Assembly (NCBI GenBank): GCA_021157415.1
Contig: JAGGWN010000034.1
Coordinates: 1-32,097 of the forward strand
From: Bacteroidales bacterium
GTDB taxonomy: Bacteria; Bacteroidota; Bacteroidia; Bacteroidales; VadinHA17
Reading direction: 5' to 3'
DNA: 32,097 bases
The notes under the pieces were generated by a model that made no database searches, was not told the DNA's origin, and worked only from the letters and a program-made list of their open reading frames with translations. Of this stretch, positions 1,094 through 19,154 are shown one piece after another. Position 1 is the stretch's first letter; each line of letters starts with the position of its first letter. The position numbers and the translations under genes are program-made.

Positions 1094-1423
1094 CTATTCC
1101 TGATTTCCCTCGAGAAAGATTCTGATCGCTTCTTTTATACTAACCGGCTTAAGGTCTTGGGGTAATGTAAATATCTCTATTCCTGTTCTTTCCAACGTCT
1201 CTTTCGCCTTGGGACCTACCTGGTAAGTAATCACTCTATGAATTCCTGCTCTTGACAACAAAGCCACCGATTGAATACCTACGCCATGCGCAGCATCAAA
1301 GTGCTCTTCATTGGAAAGTAAAGTGGTTATTTTTTCAACGGTATCATAAATTGCAAAAAAACGGGCTCTGCCGAAGTTTTCCCCGACATGCTCTTTGTCC
1401 ATAGTCTGAATAGCAATTTTCAT
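1094..1423 (-). CDS. NifX/NifB-fold (dinitrogenase iron-molybdenum cofactor family) protein
   Basis: The 109-residue product has the features of the Nitro_FeMo-Co family (NifX, NafY, NifB C-terminal domain, orange protein ORP). It opens with MKIAIQTMDK, follows with a loop ENFGRARFFAIYD, has a mid-protein AAHGVGIQSVALLSRAGIHRVIT, and ends in a GIEIF strand. Members bind metal-sulfur cofactors or precursors; no nitrogenase genes are in the window, so a nitrogen-fixation role is not implied. It follows the ferredoxin and two ferredoxin-domain ATPases, the same company ORP keeps in Desulfovibrio. It is likely cytoplasmic. A role as carrier or scaffold of a metal cluster handled by the ATPases is inference. 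Confidence 0.85.
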   Translation of the reverse strand: MKIAIQTMDKEHVGENFGRARFFAIYDTVEKITTLLSNEEHFDAAHGVGIQSVALLSRAGIHRVITYQVGPKAKETLERTGIEIFTLPQDLKPVSIKEAIRIFLEGNQE

Positions 1424-1476
1424 TTGTCAAATATTTTATTTACTTATCTCTTAACTTATATCTTTAATTTATCTTT

Positions 1477-1695
1477 TTACATAATCGCTCCTTCGGGGCA
1501 CACACTTACACATATCTTACAATTACTGCATTCATCCCGTATTACCACAGCGATCTCATTTTCCAGCTTTATGGCATGCATCGGACACACCTCCGCACAC
1601 GCCCCGCAACCTGTGCATATATCAGGCTGTATATAAGTAAAAGGAGTCTTTGCGACGGTGCTCCTGCTGAAATTATTTTCATTTTCCTGTCTCAT
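1477..1695 (-). CDS. Small 2x[4Fe-4S] ferredoxin
   Basis: This 72-residue protein has two complete CxxCxxCxxxCP motifs: C27, C30, C33, C37 (CTGCGACAEVCP) and C56, C59, C62, C66 (CSNCKICVSVCP). That is the classic bacterial ferredoxin arrangement with two low-potential [4Fe-4S] clusters. The start ATG at 1695 lies inside the end of the upstream ATPase gene, overlapping it by 17 bp, and no other ATG precedes the first motif. The overlap argues for translational coupling and joint function. It probably carries electrons to or from the ferredoxin domains of the two neighbouring ATPases or the NifX-fold protein. Confidence 0.93.
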   Translation of the reverse strand: MRQENENNFSRSTVAKTPFTYIQPDICTGCGACAEVCPMHAIKLENEIAVVIRDECSNCKICVSVCPEGAIM

Positions 1696-2584
1696 TTTTC
1701 AACTGTTCAGGTTCGACATTTCTTTGTATGATTTCCCAGGCTTCTTTTATCCTGCCGGCTACCTTGCTATCTTTCATTTCTACTACACTTTTCCCGGCAT
1801 TAATCGCCTCAGAAAAATCAGAATCATAGGGAATTTCCGATAATAATTCAATGCTCTGCTCTTTGAGAAATGTCTTTAGCCGGCCGGCCATTTCCGTATG
1901 AATATCTGCCTTATTGATAACACATCCTGCAGGGATCTTAAAATTTTGCACTACCTCCAGCACCCGTTCCAAATCATGCATCCCTGACAGAGTTGGTTCG
2001 GTCACCAACACTACATAATCGGTACCGGTAATCGAGGCAGTCACCGGACAGCCTATTCCGGGGGATCCGTCAATAAGAATATATTCCACATTTGTTTTCT
2101 CCGCTTGTTTCCGGGCTTCCTTCCTCACTTCGGTCACCAGTTTTCCCGACATATCCGAACCGATACCCAGGCGTGCATGAACCAACAGATTGTCCATGCG
2201 TGTCCTGGCGACAAATATACCTCCTGCTTTCAGCAGCTTCATCTCGATGGCTTCTACCGGACAGATCCGGGCACAATACCCGCAACCCTCACATTCTATG
2301 GGAAGAACTTTATAAACCACACCCTCCGGTTCAATCGCATCAAAATGACACACTTCCACACAATCCCCGCATCCAATACATGTTTCCGGATTGATCACGG
2401 CTTCATACCCACTGAAAAAATCTCTTGTTTTCAGGGTTTCAGGCGCAGTCACCAGATGCATATCCGCTGCGTCCACATCACAGTCGGCCACTACCGCATT
2501 TTTCCCTGCCAACCAGGCAAAAGAAGCAGTCAGAGATGTTTTCCCCGTACCCCCCTTTCCCGATATGATCACAATTTGTTTCAT
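1679..2584 (-). CDS. MinD/Mrp-family P-loop ATPase with inserted ferredoxin domain (downstream copy)
   Basis: The protein has 301 residues. A deviant Walker A motif SGKGGTGKTS sits at residues 8-17, with the signature lysine K10 of the ParA/MinD/NifH class. An inserted ferredoxin domain carries two full motifs: C69, C72, C75, C79 and C98, C101, C104, C108. A DGSPGIGCP stretch follows near residue 175 (Walker B/switch II region), and the C-terminal half is a normal MinD-like core. It belongs to the group annotated as MinD superfamily ATPases containing an inserted ferredoxin domain. The start ATG overlaps the stop of the paralogue upstream by 4 bp. Related pairs in Desulfovibrio (DVU2103/DVU2104) are part of the ORP complex. 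Confidence 0.92.
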   Translation of the reverse strand: MKQIVIISGKGGTGKTSLTASFAWLAGKNAVVADCDVDAADMHLVTAPETLKTRDFFSGYEAVINPETCIGCGDCVEVCHFDAIEPEGVVYKVLPIECEGCGYCARICPVEAIEMKLLKAGGIFVARTRMDNLLVHARLGIGSDMSGKLVTEVRKEARKQAEKTNVEYILIDGSPGIGCPVTASITGTDYVVLVTEPTLSGMHDLERVLEVVQNFKIPAGCVINKADIHTEMAGRLKTFLKEQSIELLSEIPYDSDFSEAINAGKSVVEMKDSKVAGRIKEAWEIIQRNVEPEQLKNETGK

Positions 2585-3474
2585 TCGGTTTTCATCTCTT
2601 CAGAAATTTCAAGAATATGCCGGTACACTTTCTCCATCTCCCGTCGTACCTCAGGTATTTTTCCGTACATCAAACCTCCTCCGGCATATATACCGGCAGC
2701 CTCTCTCAAATGAGGAATACGGGCAATGATCCTGATTTTTTCTGTGCCACAAAAATCATCAATCAATGTTATGGCCGGGTCATCTTTATTGATAACCACT
2801 GCAAAAGGTTTCCCCAATTCCTTCAAAGTCTTTACTGCCAGCCCCAGATCATGCAAACCGAAACGGGTAGGCTCGGCCACCAACAAGAGATAATCGGAAC
2901 GTTTGGCAGCTTCCATCATCGGACAGGAAGTCCCCGGAGGTGCATCAAATAAAATAATCTGTGACTTCTCTCCACGATCTTCTGCATAACGAATCGTCTG
3001 CGCAATCAAAGGGGTAGCCATCTCACGGCCTACGTCCAAACGCCCTTCTATCCAGGGAAACACTTTCCGTGATCCCTTAAGTGATGCCTGATAAAGGGTT
3101 ACTTCTCCAATCCTGTCATCCACCATAGGCAATGAGTGGGAAGGACACAAATCGGAGCAGGCATAGCAACCGTGACACAATTCCGGAAAAACCATCACCG
3201 AATTACCCAAAAAAGCAATGGCATTGTACATGCACACCCCGGCACATTCTCCTGATAAAATACAGGTTTCCTGATTCCATCGGGGGATTTTCCGGTATCT
3301 GACAGCACGCTCGATAACTTCTCCCTCTAAAAACAAACCGGTATTGGGTTCTTCCACATCCAGATCAACCAACATCACGGACCTGTCGGCAATGTCTCTG
3401 ATCCATGCAGTCAGATTCACCGACAATGTCGTTTTCCCCGTCCCTCCTTTTCCGCTGGCAATGGCAATTTTCAC
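2581..3474 (-). CDS. MinD/Mrp-family P-loop ATPase with inserted ferredoxin domain (upstream copy, altered cluster ligand)
   Basis: The protein has 297 residues and the same layout as its downstream paralogue. Walker A is SGKGGTGKTT at residues 7-16, and an APPGTSCP motif lies near 170. The inserted ferredoxin domain differs. The second motif is complete (C100, C103, C106, C110), but the first reads CILSGECAGVC, with Ser74 where the second cysteine ligand should be. The codon is TCA, read directly from the DNA. One cluster therefore lacks a thiolate ligand and may be a [3Fe-4S] cluster, a Ser-ligated cluster, or absent. It is the first gene of the leftward operon, preceded by its own -7 box at 3522-3529. 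Both ATPases probably act as a pair. Confidence 0.92.
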   Translation of the reverse strand: MKIAIASGKGGTGKTTLSVNLTAWIRDIADRSVMLVDLDVEEPNTGLFLEGEVIERAVRYRKIPRWNQETCILSGECAGVCMYNAIAFLGNSVMVFPELCHGCYACSDLCPSHSLPMVDDRIGEVTLYQASLKGSRKVFPWIEGRLDVGREMATPLIAQTIRYAEDRGEKSQIILFDAPPGTSCPMMEAAKRSDYLLLVAEPTRFGLHDLGLAVKTLKELGKPFAVVINKDDPAITLIDDFCGTEKIRIIARIPHLREAAGIYAGGGLMYGKIPEVRREMEKVYRHILEISEEMKTE

Positions 3475-3521
3475 TTTTTCCCGGCTTTTTTTATGTGTTA
3501 TCGTTCGGTTAAATAAAAGTG

Positions 3522-3529
3522 CAAAAATA
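3522..3529 (-). promoter_or_regulatory. -7 box for the ATPase/ferredoxin operon
   Basis: On the minus strand this reads TATTTTTG, a full match to the Bacteroidota -7 consensus TAnnTTTG, 47 bp before the ATG at 3474. No clear -33 TTG was found at the usual distance. The box lies in the T-rich tail of the terminator of the preceding gene. Confidence 0.5.
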
Positions 3530-3579
3530 AAAAAGATTTATAAGAAGGGGTTGCATCAGAATTTGATACAACCCCTTCT
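3530..3579 (-). terminator. Rho-independent terminator after the DUF5320 gene
   Basis: Positions 3543-3553 (AGAAGGGGTTG) pair perfectly with 3569-3579 (CAACCCCTTCT), an 11-bp stem, with a further ATCA/TGAT pairing inside the loop. On the minus strand the stem is followed by TATAAATC and a run of T. There is no T run on the plus side, so it ends the leftward DUF5320 transcript and insulates the ATPase operon. Confidence 0.75.
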
Positions 3580-3631
3580 GTCTAACCCTATCATTCTGTA
3601 CCCAATCTAACCACTCAAAATGAAGTTTGAT

Positions 3632-3967
3632 TTAATCTTCTCCCTTTTTGGTAGTCAGATCATTAAGTCTTTTCCGGAGATTTTCCTGTTGTTGTTCCAG
3701 GTATTTTAGTTCATTTTCCAGAAAAGTTTTTTCATCTACAGCAGGCGGAACATCAGCCGGATAATAACCTCTGCCATATCCGGCACCCCAACGGTAACCC
3801 CGGCCATAACCATAGCCCCAGCGAGCACCCCGGCCATAACCGTAACTTCTGCCCCATCCCGGAACATCATTCATGTAACCCGGTACCGAATATCCGGCAC
3901 AATAACCGGCTCTTCTACCTGTCATCGGACCTAATCCGTCAGGTCCAGTTCTATCTCCTCTTGGCAT
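3632..3967 (-). CDS. DUF5320-type Gly/Tyr-rich protein
   Basis: The 111-residue product begins MPRGDRTGPDGLGPMTGRR followed by AGYCAGY, the hallmark N-terminus of DUF5320 proteins. These small proteins are found beside NifX-fold and MinD/Mrp ATPase genes in anaerobes. The middle (about residues 38-70) is low complexity, with four GYGRG-type repeats rich in Gly, Tyr, Arg and Trp. The C-terminus (about 78-105) is a predicted coiled coil (FLENELKYLEQQQENLRKRL). The family has no defined biochemical function. Unusually for this phylum, the gene has a strong Shine-Dalgarno sequence, AAAGGAGG, 9 bases before the ATG. Its promoter carries the palindromic operator at 4018-4031, and a hairpin terminator makes it monocistronic. 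Confidence 0.85.
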   Translation of the reverse strand: MPRGDRTGPDGLGPMTGRRAGYCAGYSVPGYMNDVPGWGRSYGYGRGARWGYGYGRGYRWGAGYGRGYYPADVPPAVDEKTFLENELKYLEQQQENLRKRLNDLTTKKGED

Positions 3968-6486: not shown

Positions 6487-6771
6487 TTATTCCCCATACT
6501 TACAAAAATACGTGCTTATCCCGGTAATTTTCATTTTGAAGTTGTTGTGAGGGGAAACCACAAAAGTCTCACCTGCTTTGTACGTTTTCCATTCGGTTTC
6601 ATTTCCAACTTTTACCGCAATTTCACCGGAGCAAACCGTGGTAGTCTCTTTTTCAACAGCACCAAACTCATACTCACCAGGACTCATAATGCCAACTGAG
6701 GCAGCCTCTCCGTTCTGTTCATAAGTAAGGGACTGCACCCGGTCTCCATGATACTTTCTTAATTTAAACAT
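6487..6771 (-). CDS. ppnP: Pyrimidine/purine nucleoside phosphorylase (PpnP, DUF1255 family)
   Basis: The product has 94 residues, the same length as E. coli PpnP (YaiE), a small cupin that phosphorolyses nucleosides. Matching elements are MFKLRKYHGDRVQSLTY, ASVGIMSPGEYEFGA near residues 27-40, a TTVCSGEIAVKV strand, ETEWKTYKAGETFVVSPHNNF and the terminal STYFCKYGE. The ATG at 6771 was chosen because it aligns with the family start; the longer frame to 6840 lies inside the preceding gene. It overlaps the NifX-fold gene upstream by 8 bp, so translation is likely coupled and both depend on the operator-bearing promoter at 7136-7167. The pairing of a nucleoside phosphorylase with a NifX-fold protein is unusual. 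Confidence 0.88.
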   Translation of the reverse strand: MFKLRKYHGDRVQSLTYEQNGEAASVGIMSPGEYEFGAVEKETTTVCSGEIAVKVGNETEWKTYKAGETFVVSPHNNFKMKITGISTYFCKYGE

Positions 6772-7111
6772 ATTCGTTTGTTTTAGATAATTGAATGATT
6801 TCATAAACGATATCCTCCAATCCGTCACGATTGGTTTCATGAATTCTAATGCCTGTTGATACCAGATATTCTTTTAATCCCGGGTAAACCCCTTTAACTG
6901 CCAACCAGTCACATTCCTTAAAACATTCCGAAAACCGCTTAAAGAAACGGCCTTTTAATCCCTCGTTTTTCAGGATCTTCCAAAACCGGAAATACCTGAA
7001 CAATCTCCCTTTAACCTGCCCGTCCTCTACCAGATACACCATCACCCCTCTTGCCTCTCCAAGGCTTCCTGAAATGGTATGATGATCATTGGTAGGAATG
7101 GCGATCCTCAT
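6764..7111 (-). CDS. Second NifX/NifB-fold protein
   Basis: The product has 115 residues. Its N-terminus, MRIAIPTNDHHTISGSLGEARGVMVYLVEDGQ, is that of the Nitro_FeMo-Co family (compare MKIAI in the paralogue at 1094-1423), and the rest fits the fold: CDWLAVKGVYPGLKEYLVSTGIRIHETN, then a C-terminal helix. A basic insertion around residues 35-58 (RYFRFWKILKNEGLKGRFFKRF) is not seen in the other copy. The stop lies inside ppnP. The promoter carries the same palindrome as the DUF5320 promoter, linking this gene to the iron-sulfur neighbourhood 3 kb away. Its ligand is unknown. Confidence 0.78.
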   Translation of the reverse strand: MRIAIPTNDHHTISGSLGEARGVMVYLVEDGQVKGRLFRYFRFWKILKNEGLKGRFFKRFSECFKECDWLAVKGVYPGLKEYLVSTGIRIHETNRDGLEDIVYEIIQLSKTNEYV

Positions 7112-11626: not shown

Positions 11627-11680
11627 GTGGGTGAAAAACGGTTATCTCCGGATGACCAGTTTTTTCACCCACTTTTTATT
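11627..11680 (+). terminator. Long hairpin terminator overlapping the end of the M1 peptidase gene
   Basis: GTGGGTGAAAAA (11627-11638) pairs perfectly with TTTTTCACCCAC (11661-11672), and TTTTTATTT follows. It ends the rightward gal operon. The right arm lies inside the leftward peptidase gene and encodes part of its last residues (WVKKL), so the hairpin can serve convergent transcripts from both sides. Confidence 0.75.
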
Positions 11681-13513
11681 TCCGGAAGATATCTTTAAAA
11701 TATACAGTCCGGATGACAGGGCAGAGACATTCAGGCGGTAAGGAGCAGCCGTGAGAGTATAAGTTCTCAATATTTTTCCGTCTATGTTCAGAATCTTTAT
11801 GGTCAGACCGGGAAGGGTAAAAGACAGATAAACCCGGACCATGCCGGATGCCGGATTCGGATAGAGTATCACATCCTTATCTCCCCGGGCAGCAGAAATA
11901 ACATGGGATACCGATGATATCTCCAGCAACAACCACTTATCCGGATCAGGAGTCACTTTCCATACCGTAGCTTTCAGTGGCAAAGCAAAAACCCGGTTGT
12001 TCCGGTCCTGGTATAATCGCACCACCGTATCCCCTTCATCGGACGCTATCAGAAAATCAATGTGCATTTTAAACAGGGGGGTAGAACCGGACGGGGTCTG
12101 AACGCTCCGGATAAATAAACTGTCATGGTTCTGATACCAGGAGAAGGAAAAACGGGGGAACCCCCTACCGTAATACCACTGGTCAAAAAAATCGGAGAAA
12201 TCCATGCCGGATCGCTCTTCAACCACCTTTTCAAAATCCTTGCCTGTGGCCACGCTGTCAGCATACTCCTGCTGGAAAGATTGAAATATATCAAAAAACA
12301 ATGAATCATCATGCAGCTCATAGCGGAGCATGTGCAGAATTGCGGCTCCTTTTTTATAAGACAGGTTATAATCGAAAATACGATATACATCGTTTATTTC
12401 ATCCAGGGGCACATACACGCTACCGTCCGCTTCTTTCATAGCCCTGGCCTGGGCTGCACTCATCCAGCCAGCAGCGTCTTCTTTGCTTTTCAGGTTCTCC
12501 CGCGAAATATACTCCGAGTACGAAGCAAAACCTTCGTTGATCCAAATATCCTGCCAGGAGGCACAGGTAACATGGTCACCAAACCATTGGTGGGCCAGTT
12601 CATGCACCACCATATCAAATCCGAAGTTGTCCAGGGTTGTCATCGTCTGGTGTTCCATGCCCCCTCCCATGGGTGCCAGACAATGACCATATTTCTCATC
12701 AGCAAAAGGATAAAGTCCATACAACTCCGAGTAAAGTTCAAGGGCAGGCACTACCTGGTCGATTTTTTCCTTTTCTGCATCCAGATAACCAGCATCCTGA
12801 TAAACCAGGTTCTTTATCAGGACAGAATCCTGCGTGCTTTTCGGATGAGCATAAAGGTCATAGGTCCGGTATCCGGATACCGCGAGGGAAATCAGGTAAT
12901 AATCTATCGGATGATGATGATGCCAGCGATACCGAAGCAAGCTGCCGTCTTCCAGCGTATCCACGCCTTCCAGCACACCGTTCGATCCCGCAACCAATCC
13001 CCTGGCAACAGTTACCCATACGGCACAGGAGTCGGCTTTGTCTCCCAGGTCCTGTTTACAGGGAAACCATTCTTTTGCCGCAAAAGGCTCCGATAAGGTC
13101 CATGTAACCCGCTGGTGCCAGTCCGCATCTTCTTTGCTGGTCATAGCACTGAAAAAACCTCCGGTAGGGACTTTGCCATGATAATACACTACGGTCTTCA
13201 CGGGCATTCCCCTTGCCGGAGCAGGTGACAGAGGGATAAGCAGAGTATCATCTGCATGTACAAATCCATGTTTCATGTCGTTCACGAAAACGGAATCCAC
13301 CTGCAGCGAGTCGGTAAGCTGCAGAATCATTTCCTGCAGATTATCCGATACTACATGCACCAGAATCTGTGTTCTTCCTTTAATAACAGTATTTGAATCA
13401 TTCACCTGAAGATCCAGAAAATACCATTTCACATCGTACTCCGGTAAATCCGAAGAAAATGCAGGATATACCCGGAAAATAAGCAGGAAAACAATAAACC
13501 AATAATTTTTCAC
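11642..13513 (-). CDS. Secreted M1-family zinc metallopeptidase with T9SS C-terminal sorting domain
   Basis: The 623-residue protein starts with a signal peptide (about residues 1-21) and an aminopeptidase-N-like beta domain. The catalytic domain has GGGMEHQT at 283-290, in the place of the family GAMEN exopeptidase motif, and the zinc site HELAHQWFGDH with H304, H308 and E327 (HExxH-x18-E). The last ~75 residues (from about ILYPNPASG, ending LYILKISSGNKKWVKKLVI) are a type A T9SS sorting domain, so the enzyme is secreted or anchored on the surface. The start is GTG at 13513, 4 bp after the lipoprotein hydrolase gene, with which it forms an operon. It probably cleaves peptides from N-termini. 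Confidence 0.93.
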   Translation of the reverse strand: MKNYWFIVFLLIFRVYPAFSSDLPEYDVKWYFLDLQVNDSNTVIKGRTQILVHVVSDNLQEMILQLTDSLQVDSVFVNDMKHGFVHADDTLLIPLSPAPARGMPVKTVVYYHGKVPTGGFFSAMTSKEDADWHQRVTWTLSEPFAAKEWFPCKQDLGDKADSCAVWVTVARGLVAGSNGVLEGVDTLEDGSLLRYRWHHHHPIDYYLISLAVSGYRTYDLYAHPKSTQDSVLIKNLVYQDAGYLDAEKEKIDQVVPALELYSELYGLYPFADEKYGHCLAPMGGGMEHQTMTTLDNFGFDMVVHELAHQWFGDHVTCASWQDIWINEGFASYSEYISRENLKSKEDAAGWMSAAQARAMKEADGSVYVPLDEINDVYRIFDYNLSYKKGAAILHMLRYELHDDSLFFDIFQSFQQEYADSVATGKDFEKVVEERSGMDFSDFFDQWYYGRGFPRFSFSWYQNHDSLFIRSVQTPSGSTPLFKMHIDFLIASDEGDTVVRLYQDRNNRVFALPLKATVWKVTPDPDKWLLLEISSVSHVISAARGDKDVILYPNPASGMVRVYLSFTLPGLTIKILNIDGKILRTYTLTAAPYRLNVSALSSGLYILKISSGNKKWVKKLVIRR

Positions 13514-14795: not shown

Positions 14796-14817
14796 AAAAA
14801 TAATTATTATTTCTTTG
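14786..14817 (+). promoter_or_regulatory. Promoter of the Fur-family gene with a Fur/PerR-type box in the spacer
   Basis: TTTG (14786-14789), 20 bp, then TTTCTTTG (14810-14817, one mismatch to TAnnTTTG). Within the spacer, 14798-14812 is a perfect 7-1-7 inverted repeat, AAATAAT-T-ATTATTT, the size and style of Fur/PerR boxes. Autoregulation by the gene it precedes is a reasonable inference. Confidence 0.6.
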
Positions 14818-14853
14818 TACTTCTTCTTTACTAAGAATTATTATCATTTATCT

Positions 14854-15276
14854 ATGAAAAAACAAAATATACAGAAACTATTAAAAGATCACGGACTAAA
14901 AATAACGCCGCAAAGAAAGATCATCCTAGGGATACTATTTGCGATGAACAACCATCCGACAGCGGAGATGATCATCCGGGAGGTAACCCTAAAAGAACCT
15001 AACATTTCCCCCGGCACGGTTTATAAGACCCTGGACCTGCTGGTTGAAAAAGGAATTATCCATAAAATCAAAACAGAAAAAGATATTATGCGGTATGATC
15101 CTTTTATCCATCGTCATCATCATTTGTATATCCGTGAAACCGATGAGATCATTGATTACGAGGATGAGGATCTTAATCGTTTACTGGAGTCCTTTTTTAG
15201 CAAAAAAAACATCCCCGGATTCCGGGTTGAAGATTTTCGACTGGAAATTACAGCCAGACAAAATGAACAAAAATGA
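14854..15276 (+). CDS. Fur/PerR-family transcriptional regulator without cysteines
   Basis: The 140-residue protein has the Fur winged helix: LKDHGLKITPQRKIILGIL near the N-terminus, HPTAEMIIREV, and the recognition helix region ISPGTVYKTLDLLVEKGII. A histidine-rich regulatory-metal stretch follows (FIHRHHHLYI near residue 88). The CxxC structural-zinc motif usual after HHHL is absent (IRETDEIIDYED), and the protein has no cysteine at all. Its partner gene downstream (54 bp) is a peroxiredoxin, so a PerR-like peroxide sensor acting by metal-catalysed histidine oxidation is likely. The ATG at 14854 was chosen; the upstream TTG at 14815 lies within the promoter. Confidence 0.85.
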   Translation: MKKQNIQKLLKDHGLKITPQRKIILGILFAMNNHPTAEMIIREVTLKEPNISPGTVYKTLDLLVEKGIIHKIKTEKDIMRYDPFIHRHHHLYIRETDEIIDYEDEDLNRLLESFFSKKNIPGFRVEDFRLEITARQNEQK

Positions 15277-15330: not shown

Positions 15331-15981
15331 ATGGAACAGACAAATCACACTTTTCCGCTATTAGGGGATGTTTTCCCTGAGATGGAAGTTCAAACTACTC
15401 ACGGAGTAAAAAAACTTCCCGCAGACTACAAAGGCAAATGGCTGGTATTATTCAGTCATCCCGGAGATTTCACACCGGTATGTACTACTGAGTTTGTATC
15501 TTTTGCCCAGCACAATGACCAATTCAAGGAGTTAAACGCAGAGTTGCTCGGACTTTCAGTCGATCAGGTATTCGCACACATCAAATGGCACGAATGGATT
15601 GAAGATAACCTCAAGGTGGATATCCCATTCCCGATCATCGCCGATAATCTTGGCAGCGTCTCTCATAAACTGGGACTATTGCATCCCGGCAAAGGCTCAA
15701 ACACGGTACGTGCAGTTTACATTGTGGATCCCCAGGGCATGATCCGCCTGATCATCTATTATCCGCAGGAAATAGGAAGAAACGTAGATGAAATCGTACG
15801 TGCCTTAAAGGCCTTGCAGGTTTCTGATGAGGAAGGAGTTGCCACACCGGAAAACTGGCCCAACAATTCCTTGCTGGGCAGTCGCGTGATCGTTCCGCCG
15901 GCCACAGACACTGAAATGGCCCAAGAGCGCCTTAAAAACTACGAATGCTACGACTGGTGGTTCTGTCACAAAGAACGGTAG
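15331..15981 (+). CDS. Peroxiredoxin (Prx6-like / archaeal-type AhpC-TSA)
   Basis: The 216-residue thiol peroxidase reduces hydrogen and organic peroxides. The active site is [15 protein letters not shown] with peroxidatic C51. The long C-terminal arm ([11 protein letters not shown] and onward) and two terminal cysteines, C206 and C212 in YECYDWWFC, match archaeal enzymes such as that of Aeropyrum pernix, which form large ring decamers. [23 protein letters not shown] is the usual core. A purine-rich AAAAAGGA lies just before the ATG. It follows the Fur/PerR-like gene and is probably both co-transcribed with and controlled by it. It is cytoplasmic. Confidence 0.94.
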
Positions 15982-16002
15982 TACCCTCTGAAATTTTATG
16001 AG

Positions 16003-16041
16003 AAAGGTAGAGTCAGCCATAGGGCGTCTCTACTTTTTTTT
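16003..16041 (+). terminator. Intrinsic terminator after the peroxiredoxin gene
   Basis: GTAGAG (16007-16012) pairs with CTCTAC (16028-16033); the stem extends by G-T and A-T pairs into the run of T at 16034 onward. It closes the regulator-peroxiredoxin unit 21 bp after the stop. Confidence 0.7.
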
Positions 16042-16073
16042 TACCTTAGCAGGCTGATCAGTAAGTGACGAAC

Positions 16074-16805
16074 ATGTCTTTTTTCAGAAAAATAAGTACG
16101 ATTGTTGTATTTTTCTTCCTGCTTCAGGGTTCTTCCCTGCATGCGCAGCGATTTTATCAGGATCTGCAGGAATATTGTGATCGTCTTTCAAAAGAAATTA
16201 CATCGATTCCGGGGGCAAGAAAAGACTCCTTAAAAATCATCGGAGATTTTATTCTGCAATTACGGCAAAACCATAAGTCTGTTGAAACTCTTTTTGCCGG
16301 CAGCAGTAACGGAACACTTAGTCAGGCCGCTGAAATATGGTTTTATACAGCATTGCATTTCTACAAAGTAAAAAATATTAAACCCTTTTCGGGCGGGATC
16401 CATCCGGGAGCTATCAACTACAGAATCGTCGGGGCATTTAAGAGATGCGGTTTTTTCATTATGCCGGCAGGCGGTTATGCCGATAACCCCGTTTACTTTC
16501 TGAACCTGGGGCGTAATTATCCGGATTATACTTTTTTTGCAAAACCCATTGATTACCATAGCAACCCCCACAGTCATTTTCTTGTCATTCCGGTTTTCCC
16601 GGAGGTGGACACGGTCGATTTTCAACAATATGGTGCAGAAAAAACCATACCCTGCCATTGGAAAAATCCTTCACTCTGGGATGACACATCCATGGAAAAC
16701 ATAAAATACGATGCCTGTATTCATAAAATTGGCCGTGATCTTTTTTATCTGGCCGGATATATACGGGACCGTCTTAAATCCGAAAAAAAGAAAAAAAAGA
16801 AATAA
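16074..16805 (+). CDS. Exported low-molecular-weight phosphatase/arsenate-reductase-like protein lacking the catalytic residues
   Basis: The 243-residue protein begins with a signal peptide (FFRKISTIVVFFFLLQGSSLHAQ). The mature part follows the pattern of Bacteroidota LMW-PTP/ArsC-like proteins: an alpha-helical lead, LFAGSSNGTLSQAAEIWF where the phosphate loop should be, then KPFSGGIHPGAINYRIVGAF, CGFFIMPAGGYADNPVY, GAEKTIPCHW, WDDTS and a final helix. Active relatives read roughly FICTHNSRRS at the loop; here Cys is Gly and the second Arg is Leu, so catalysis by the usual mechanism is excluded. A lysine-rich tail (KKKKKK) ends it. The ATG at 16074 gives the cleanest signal peptide. Function unknown; a binding or sensing role outside the cytoplasm is inference. 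Confidence 0.7.
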   Translation: MSFFRKISTIVVFFFLLQGSSLHAQRFYQDLQEYCDRLSKEITSIPGARKDSLKIIGDFILQLRQNHKSVETLFAGSSNGTLSQAAEIWFYTALHFYKVKNIKPFSGGIHPGAINYRIVGAFKRCGFFIMPAGGYADNPVYFLNLGRNYPDYTFFAKPIDYHSNPHSHFLVIPVFPEVDTVDFQQYGAEKTIPCHWKNPSLWDDTSMENIKYDACIHKIGRDLFYLAGYIRDRLKSEKKKKKK

Positions 16806-16806
16806 T

Positions 16807-17715
16807 CTACACGGGTTTTACCCATCTCATAAAATGCGGTAGCCTGTTCATAATTACCCGGGGATAATTCACTTCTTTCCCTCCAAATCCCTTATAAAAA
16901 CGGGCAAGGTCATGATTATCCGATCCTTCGAAATCCAACCACATTTTTTCACCTGTATGCATTCTGATAAAATGATCGATAATGCCTGCCAGAGCATGGA
17001 TATCCCTTCCTTCCGGCGATTCTGCCGAAAACAAAAAAATATACCTTTCATAAGATCTGGAAAAAACAGCCCCGGATATAAGCCGGTCCCCTTCCCGTAC
17101 CGTACAGACCGTTAACAGGCTTTTTCTTCCAAGCACGGATAACAAACGGCTGAGAATACCATAATGAGCTTTTGCCACACCATATTTTTTTCCCTGCCTC
17201 CCTGCAAATAACCGTATGATGTCCTCAGCAGCCACAGGATCTTCCACAACACCTATTCCGGTTTTCTGAAATTTACGGATGTTACGCCTGGTATTCTCAT
17301 GGTAATATTTTTCCGGAATGTCATGATACAGATTCAGCAGGACATTTCTTCTTGGCACAACCTTGCAAGAGCAGCCGTCCACAGGATTTTTTTCATTCAA
17401 CTGGAGATCCATAAATCTATACCGGGCCGGCAGGGATCCGATATATTCAGCTACCTCTTTCCCATTTGCAACCATATGTGAGAAAAAGCCCAACTGCTGA
17501 ACAAACGGAGGTTGAATCACATAATTTACTCCAAACTTTTTTTTCACAGGTAACGGAAAGATCTTTTCATACTCTCCTTCCACCAGGGCCGCCCATCCCG
17601 GCGAAACAATATCAAGATACCAGGAAAGAGCATAGATCATCCCATTGGATGCATGTTCCACCGTGTTATCCCATTTTCTTTTATCTATCTCATTATGTGA
17701 AAGAAACCGAATCAT
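16807..17715 (-). CDS. FemAB/GNAT-fold acyltransferase-like protein
   Basis: The 302-residue product looks like the GNAT/FemAB-type proteins common in Bacteroidota. Typical elements are YALSWYLDIVSPGWAALV near residues 28-45, VIQPPFVQQLGFFS near 66-79, YHENTRRNIRKFQKTGI near 137-153 and DRLISGAVFSRSYERYIFLFSA near 208-229, followed by a second acetyl-CoA-type fold region with LDFEGSDNHDLARFYKGFGG. No signal peptide is evident, so it is cytoplasmic. The donor and acceptor are unknown; relatives act in cell-envelope or polysaccharide modification. Its ATG overlaps the stop of the deacetylase-like gene (ATGA), which implies coupled translation. Confidence 0.7.
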   Translation of the reverse strand: MIRFLSHNEIDKRKWDNTVEHASNGMIYALSWYLDIVSPGWAALVEGEYEKIFPLPVKKKFGVNYVIQPPFVQQLGFFSHMVANGKEVAEYIGSLPARYRFMDLQLNEKNPVDGCSCKVVPRRNVLLNLYHDIPEKYYHENTRRNIRKFQKTGIGVVEDPVAAEDIIRLFAGRQGKKYGVAKAHYGILSRLLSVLGRKSLLTVCTVREGDRLISGAVFSRSYERYIFLFSAESPEGRDIHALAGIIDHFIRMHTGEKMWLDFEGSDNHDLARFYKGFGGKEVNYPRVIMNRLPHFMRWVKPV

Positions 17716-19013
17716 TTACCGTGTATTGCTTTTTCCAGCCATTCTTCATAGAGATGTTTCCACCCCTGCCAATCGTCCTGGTCGCTCAGCGTATGGTTGT
17801 GCCAAAGCTGAACAAACCATCCGCCCGTATTTTCGATCTTTTGCTGCAGGATACTCAGAGAACGAAGAACTTCTTCGCCCTTGCTGCCGTATTTTTTTTT
17901 CAGTGCTCCGTCCATCACCGCAAAAGGATAAACGGTTAGGCCGGTTGTTTCATTGTGTTGCAGATCAAACCACCGGAAAGGCCGGGATGTACCTGCACGA
18001 AACCCCGGAAGCTCAGGAAAACCCATACTGTAATCCTCACGGATACCAACCTCAAGAAAACGACGGTAGGTTTCCGGTAAACGCAGCCGTATAAAGTGCT
18101 GACGGCTGGCCGTTACGGTGCAGCCAAGTACTTTTTCCAGCCGCTCTTTCTCCCAACGCAACAATTCCGGTTCGTCATGGGAACGGTAAGAAGGGTGCAA
18201 CCCCACCCTCCCCCAGGTATTGCATTCACGAATCACCTGTCTGACGGATTCTTTCTCCGGGGAGATACTCTTATCAAACTTCCCCCATTTTCCGGTATGA
18301 AAGAAAAAAAAAGGCTTTAGTCCCGTGGGCTCATGCAAGCGGCGTATTAAGGCAAACGTATCAAACGGATCTTTCGTCCGGCCCCGCCGGATCTTCCACC
18401 GTGCCGCAAAGTCCCCGGCTTTCAGGCTCCCCCCCAGAAATCGCATCACAGGCTTATCCTGTACAGCAAAAACCTGGTCCACATCAAAAGTGGGCAGGAA
18501 ACGATATTCCTTTTCTCTGAATGAGAGTCCGGGAAAAACAGTGATCAGTTTCTTTTCCAGTATCAGGGCCCAGGAATCCACCACCGGCACTTCAAGAAAA
18601 TCCTTCCTGTGGGCCAGGGATAAAGCAGCAGGGAATCGTCCGTGCTCATCCTGCTCAAAAGGCAGGTATTCTTCATACCGGCTCAGCATATAAAATGCGG
18701 CTGAAAAAATATCAAAGGGAAGATCCCCGTTTTCATGCACAGGGAATAGCACCGGTATATTTTCAAACACAGACACTTCCGGCACAATCTCTTTCACCTC
18801 ATTTTCCAGCACCAACCCTGCGGCAGGGATATATATTTCATTTCCTTTCCTGACCCGGGCCCTTCCGTAACAAATACCCGGAAGAAAGGATTGCAAATAG
18901 TCCTGCTTGTCCGTAACGACCTCATACTTCAGCCCCATACGTTCTTTCAGCAACTCATCCAGGACATACGTAAACCGGGGTGTCGCTTTTTCCGTATATA
19001 TCAGTATCTGCAT
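17712..19013 (-). CDS. Polysaccharide-deacetylase-like protein (DUF7033 plus NodB-like domain)
   Basis: This 433-residue protein opens with MQILIYTEKATPRFTYVLDELL and continues with an N-terminal domain including FDIFSAAFYMLSRYEEYLPF near residues 119-138, characteristic of the DUF7033 region. A NodB-like half follows: the metal Asp pair in PTFDVDQVF near 195, FFFFHTGKWGKFD, and HPSYRSHDEP carrying the metal histidines. No signal peptide is seen. The ATG at 19013 aligns with the family start; the longer frame to 19118 adds unrelated residues. It is coupled to the FemAB-like gene, a pairing that suggests joint modification of an envelope polysaccharide. Substrate unproven. Confidence 0.75.
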   Translation of the reverse strand: MQILIYTEKATPRFTYVLDELLKERMGLKYEVVTDKQDYLQSFLPGICYGRARVRKGNEIYIPAAGLVLENEVKEIVPEVSVFENIPVLFPVHENGDLPFDIFSAAFYMLSRYEEYLPFEQDEHGRFPAALSLAHRKDFLEVPVVDSWALILEKKLITVFPGLSFREKEYRFLPTFDVDQVFAVQDKPVMRFLGGSLKAGDFAARWKIRRGRTKDPFDTFALIRRLHEPTGLKPFFFFHTGKWGKFDKSISPEKESVRQVIRECNTWGRVGLHPSYRSHDEPELLRWEKERLEKVLGCTVTASRQHFIRLRLPETYRRFLEVGIREDYSMGFPELPGFRAGTSRPFRWFDLQHNETTGLTVYPFAVMDGALKKKYGSKGEEVLRSLSILQQKIENTGGWFVQLWHNHTLSDQDDWQGWKHLYEEWLEKAIHGK

Positions 19014-19154
19014 GTCAGTTTTTTGAAATATAAAAGTATGAAATAAAACGGTGTTGAGCGTTAAGGGTTGAGAGTTTGACATTTTAATTCTTCCCGAAGG
19101 GATACCTTTGATCCCCACTTCACATTCTCCCGAAAGGATGCGTTGGCATACATT

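Follow-up and report, generated by a model that had tools for sequence, protein, structure and literature searches.

The window (the whole 32,097 nucleotide stretch of Bacteroidales DNA analyzed here) carries a gene for a 243 amino acid protein that resembles the ArsC and low molecular weight protein tyrosine phosphatase (LMW-PTP) proteins, is predicted to be exported, and is preceded by genes for a Fur-family regulator and a peroxiredoxin (Table 1). The reading frame is open from either a GTG at 16065 or the in-frame ATG listed in the table to the stop codon at 16803–16805, in keeping with a preliminary description of this DNA that called the frame intact, and it is uninterrupted in each of 8 genomes from two genera. 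We consider the ATG to be the better start, since the TACCTTAG element and the hairpin just upstream would place the start of transcription only a few bases from the GTG, and residues are numbered from this ATG throughout. All of the motifs quoted in that description are present: A75-G-S-S-N-G-T-L-S83, S106-GGIHPGA113, A136-DNPVY141, E189-KTIPCHW196 and W202-DD204.

Table 1. Features of the putative pseudoenzyme gene and the region upstream of it.
Feature	Position	Strand	Basis or remarks
Fur-family (PerR-like) regulator	14815..15276	+	Synteny kept across the genus and in g5
Peroxiredoxin (Prx6-type, without signal peptide)	15331..15981	+	Syntenic in the genus
Terminator-like hairpin and U-run between peroxiredoxin and pseudoenzyme genes	16000..16042	+	Other species have hairpins at this position that differ in sequence
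TACCTTAG, possible Bacteroidota -7 promoter element	16042..16049	+	Recognized by eye
Putative exported ArsC/LMW-PTP-like pseudoenzyme, 243 aa	16074..16805	+	Open reading frame; homologues; profile match to active family
Predicted signal peptide, residues 1–24, cut A24|Q25	16074..16145	+	Hydrophobic core; Q25 in 8/8 members of the inactive clade
Former P-loop, with G76-S-S-N-G-T-L-S83 replacing C-x-x-N-S-R-R-S	16299..16322	+	Alignment to intact relatives
Former general-acid region, H195-W-K-N198, with Asn (Arg in three relatives) where Asp stood	16656..16667	+	Alignment
Lysine-rich C-terminal tail	16776..16802	+	Found on the majority of this GTDB family's exported proteins, inactive and intact

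The search for relatives of the window protein gave matches in each of the 7 genomes of its genus and in further genera of its GTDB family, and then at the levels of order, class and phylum; beyond the genus it covered a sample of about 1,400 genomes, so inactive lineages other than the one described here may exist. No relatives turned up in scans of viral contigs. The proposed relationship to ArsC and LMW-PTP proteins is borne out by a chain of two profile comparisons that makes the homology firm: the profile of the inactive proteins aligns with that of their intact relatives over 214 columns (hhalign Prob 100, E 2.7e-42), with an ungapped loop in which G76 faces the Cys and L82 the Arg of CX5R, and the intact Bacteroidota relatives (loop CTHNSRRS) in turn match Bacillus subtilis ArsC (PDB 1jl3) with E 7.3e-15 over a region that spans the Cys82/Cys89 relay and the Asp-Pro general-acid segment. 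That the protein instead has an unrelated fold with a chance resemblance to ArsC-like motifs is scarcely credible. The window protein alone matched no Pfam or NCBIfam model (including PF01451, LMWPc, at the Pfam gathering cut-off) and no PDB chain significantly, a profile of the inactive proteins only gave non-significant PDB matches, and the structure model predicted from three near-identical sequences (the window protein, L021 and L022) was unusable (pLDDT 36.5, pTM 0.28); against this stand the gapless alignment above, 33–35% full-length identity to intact exported members of its GTDB family, and a match of the mixed profile to ArsC at 1.5e-6. Matches to PF01451 were shown by 6 of the 15 members of set A1, the best with E 7.9e-5.

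The direct, full-length relatives of the window protein are a Bacteroidota family of ArsC-like proteins of 200–250 amino acids (CTHNSRRS loop, CSxADxxCP relay; L016–L018, L034–L044 and L058–L101), several of which are exported proteins or lipoproteins and all of which keep the catalytic loop that is lost only in the clade of the window protein. The thioredoxin-linked ArsC proteins (Staphylococcus aureus pI258 and B. subtilis type; PDB 1jl3 and 1ljl) are homologous in their fold core by profile and share the conserved SGG, G126, N-P and K positions with this Bacteroidota subfamily, but the window protein is longer (243 versus 131–139 amino acids), has an extra N-terminal region, is predicted to be exported, and lacks equivalents of Cys10, Arg16, Cys82, Cys89 and the general-acid Asp. 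The LMW-PTPs (PF01451) belong to the same superfamily and their loop residues N79 and S83 are partly kept in the clade of the window protein, which differs from them in having no CX5R loop, no Asp acid and no Pfam match, and in its predicted export.

The preliminary description had noted the loss of the nucleophilic Cys and the phosphate-binding Arg, and neither is present in any of the 8 inactive proteins, where the loop reads GSSNGTLS in the window protein against CTHNSRRS in the family. The loss goes further than was claimed, since the nucleophile Cys, both loop Arg residues, the loop Ser, the general-acid Asp and both relay Cys residues are all gone. Position 198, the general acid, is Asp in 46/46 intact relatives and Asn or Arg in 8/8 inactive proteins. 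Six of the 26 positions that are nearly invariant among the 46 intact relatives (C76, S80, R81, R82, S156 and D198) are lost in all 8 inactive proteins, the invariance at the loop positions being partly by construction since these relatives were chosen by their loop motif; a looser reading of the remaining relatives found no further inactive loop. The other 20 positions are mostly kept, for example W89, SGG106–108, G126, N138, K157, NP164–165, G187 and D203, so that the losses are concentrated on catalysis and the fold positions stay. The function of Cys82 and Cys89 as a relay in thioredoxin-linked ArsC has been described (PMC9454679). The aligned segment of the window protein, VFPEVDTVDFQQYGAE, contains no Cys, and the exported intact proteins of the sister clade (L009–L013) keep only the first relay Cys.

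Could such extensive loss reflect a decaying pseudogene or an assembly artefact? The total loss of the catalytic residues and the homopolymer A tract at the 3' end of the gene might be read in this way, but the frame has stayed open across both genera at saturated synonymous divergence, neither the signal peptide nor the fold residues have been lost, and dN/dS ranges from 0.10 to 0.20 (window/L003 0.111, L006/L007 0.119, window/L004 0.100). For the first of these genome pairs the neighboring mutS2 gene gave practically the same value, 0.109, and the peroxiredoxin gene 0.046. Decay is rejected on these dN/dS values, and we regard this explanation as very improbable. Sequencing error is likewise not the cause, since six congeneric genomes have the same loop type as the window protein and dN/dS is low. 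The gene, present in 7/7 genomes of the genus, is selectively maintained by purifying selection; a gene under such selection that lacks the catalytic-center positions has the character of a pseudoenzyme, and conservation of the fold rests on homology. No second full-length copy of the family was found in any genome of the inactive clade (one, G010, has a weak 58-position match elsewhere), and the genome of the window has only a standard cytosolic ArsC elsewhere; a role as regulator of an active exported paralogue was rejected for lack of such a copy.

The predicted signal peptide has the layout typical of signal peptidase I substrates, MSFFRKIS / TIVVFFFLLQGSSL / HA|Q, with a Bacteroidota-style cut before Q25, a residue kept in 8/8 inactive proteins, and a hydrophobic core whose 12-residue mean hydropathy is 2.37. 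Export, which the preliminary description had proposed, is likewise predicted here from composition, and the protein would be located in the periplasm. That description also linked the gain of a signal peptide to the loss of catalysis, and this part is not supported. Signal peptides or lipoprotein signals are predicted in the catalytically intact relatives L009–L013 from the same GTDB family, and in intact relatives from many other Bacteroidia families (for example L014, L034, L043, L044, L058, L059, L061, L062, L077, L084, L086, L091, L094, L097 and L100).

In a maximum-likelihood tree of 54 rows the inactive proteins, 8 members drawn from each of the 7 genomes of this genus and from a further genus (g5), are monophyletic with support of 100/100, and the stem branch leading to them is long (0.6 changes per column). 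They are sister to L009–L013 (support 99/94), and the two together sit in a larger group of exported proteins only, which has weaker support (94/84). The nesting of the inactive clade among exported intact relatives indicates that export preceded the loss of catalysis and that this loss happened once. The order of events can be read from cytoplasmic intact proteins, through exported intact proteins and exported proteins without the second relay Cys, to exported inactive ones. The lysine-rich tail is encoded by A-runs and is variable in length; Lys and Arg make up 44–63% of the last 16 residues in the inactive clade versus 0–31% in proteins other than the exported members of this GTDB family. 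Its presence in most exported family members, inactive or intact, means that the tail goes with export and not with inactivity.

The gene order in the genus is Fur-family regulator, peroxiredoxin, pseudoenzyme, and then convergent GNAT-like, VimE-like and mutS2 genes, while in g5 it is Fur-family regulator, Dps, pseudoenzyme. This conserved order raises the possibility that the protein belongs to the response to peroxide stress, being induced together with the adjacent regulator and the peroxiredoxin or Dps and protecting the periplasm. We think it unlikely that any such link would hold, as a hairpin with a T-run, different in sequence from species to species, separates the peroxiredoxin and pseudoenzyme genes in every congeneric genome read; peroxiredoxin, Dps and the regulator have no signal peptide and would act in another compartment; and the intact exported relatives within the family have other neighbors, the sister proteins adjoining genes for the envelope proteins DUF6452, DUF6048, OMP_b-brl and DUF4251. 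The hairpin in the window has a z of -1.3 on its own and is absent from a simple scan, and its positional conservation is the stronger evidence for it. Most congeneric genomes have TAnnTTAGC, read by eye, at the place of the TACCTTAG element. Co-operonic work with the peroxiredoxin was also rejected, given the hairpins between the genes and the different compartments.

Loss of the catalytic residues was accompanied by the appearance of new conserved ones, namely Y91, Y152, H166, W196 and W202 in 8/8 and H162 and H195 in 7/8 of the inactive proteins, and these suggest a new pocket or interface. (P199, T205, E208 and Y212 were also considered specific to the inactive clade, and were rejected as ancestral once all intact relatives, not the sister group alone, were compared.) The same residues could be taken to mean that the protein has kept an enzymatic role by rebuilding its active site (His162/His166/His195, or Asp76 in g5) for a different, possibly metal-dependent reaction. 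This seems improbable: the His residues do not make up any recognized metal motif, L004 has Arg in place of H162 and L008 has Leu in place of H195, and the P-loop replacements differ between the genera. The loop itself may not be a functional site, because its conservation between subclades (GSSNGTLSQ versus GITDGSLTQ) is about equal to that of the rest of the protein and the g5 loop is different (DRNNAKISQ).

We therefore favor a genuine exported pseudoenzyme, probably a periplasmic, non-catalytic binding or scaffold protein whose catalysis was erased after export; the preliminary description's idea of a non-catalytic role is supported. An ArsC/LMW-PTP-type protein with an intact catalytic loop would first have moved to the periplasm in Bacteroidota, and its catalytic center would then have been erased in an ancestor shared by this genus and a sister genus, with the fold and signal peptide kept. 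The present protein most likely binds a ligand or serves as a scaffold in the periplasm; it would do so through a rebuilt active-site face, made up of the glycine-rich loop with Leu82 and the new conserved Tyr91, Tyr152, His166, Trp196 and Trp202, and its lysine-rich tail could perhaps tether it to anionic envelope surfaces. Simple sensing of phosphate or another anion appears less likely than the preliminary description held, because the loop Arg is lost.

Pseudophosphatases are well known in eukaryotes. Our search of the open-access literature found no case of an exported bacterial pseudophosphatase, which is weak evidence of novelty. In PTPRK D2 and PTPRU, for example, an inactive PTP fold is reportedly kept for a binding role (PMC9640194, PMC7320164); these share with the window protein an inactive phosphatase fold and differ in being eukaryotic and of an unrelated PTP class. 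Our findings raise the question of what role an ArsC/LMW-PTP-like protein has outside the Bacteroidota cytoplasm. We propose only tentatively, with the balance tipped somewhat against it, that Bacteroidota have an unrecognized branch of exported periplasmic ArsC/LMW-PTP-like proteins and that one lineage's member could now be a dedicated receptor or scaffold with a rebuilt pocket and a new ligand.

Several other observations were made during this analysis. Lipoprotein-type signals are present on the catalytically intact ArsC-like proteins L034, L043, L044, L077 and L097, and such proteins have apparently been exported more than once. In L067, L073 and also L092, all from one Bacteroidia family (f129), the protein begins with a multi-pass membrane domain joined to a catalytically intact ArsC-like domain and represents a form of the ArsC-like family anchored in the membrane. 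At L052–L056 intact exported relatives lie within a conserved cluster of envelope proteins, made up of a 230 amino acid exported protein, a DUF6452 lipoprotein, DUF6048, OMP_b-brl, a metallo-beta-lactamase-fold protein and DUF4251. In the window itself a VimE-like deacetylase (DUF7033; 17712–19118) lies beside the GNAT-like protein and a T9SS-sorted M1 peptidase is encoded at 11642–13513, which suggests T9SS/A-LPS surface anchoring in this organism. Small proteins like those of the dinitrogenase iron-molybdenum cofactor family and two MinD/Mrp-like ATPase genes were recognized by eye at 1094–3967 and 6764–7111.
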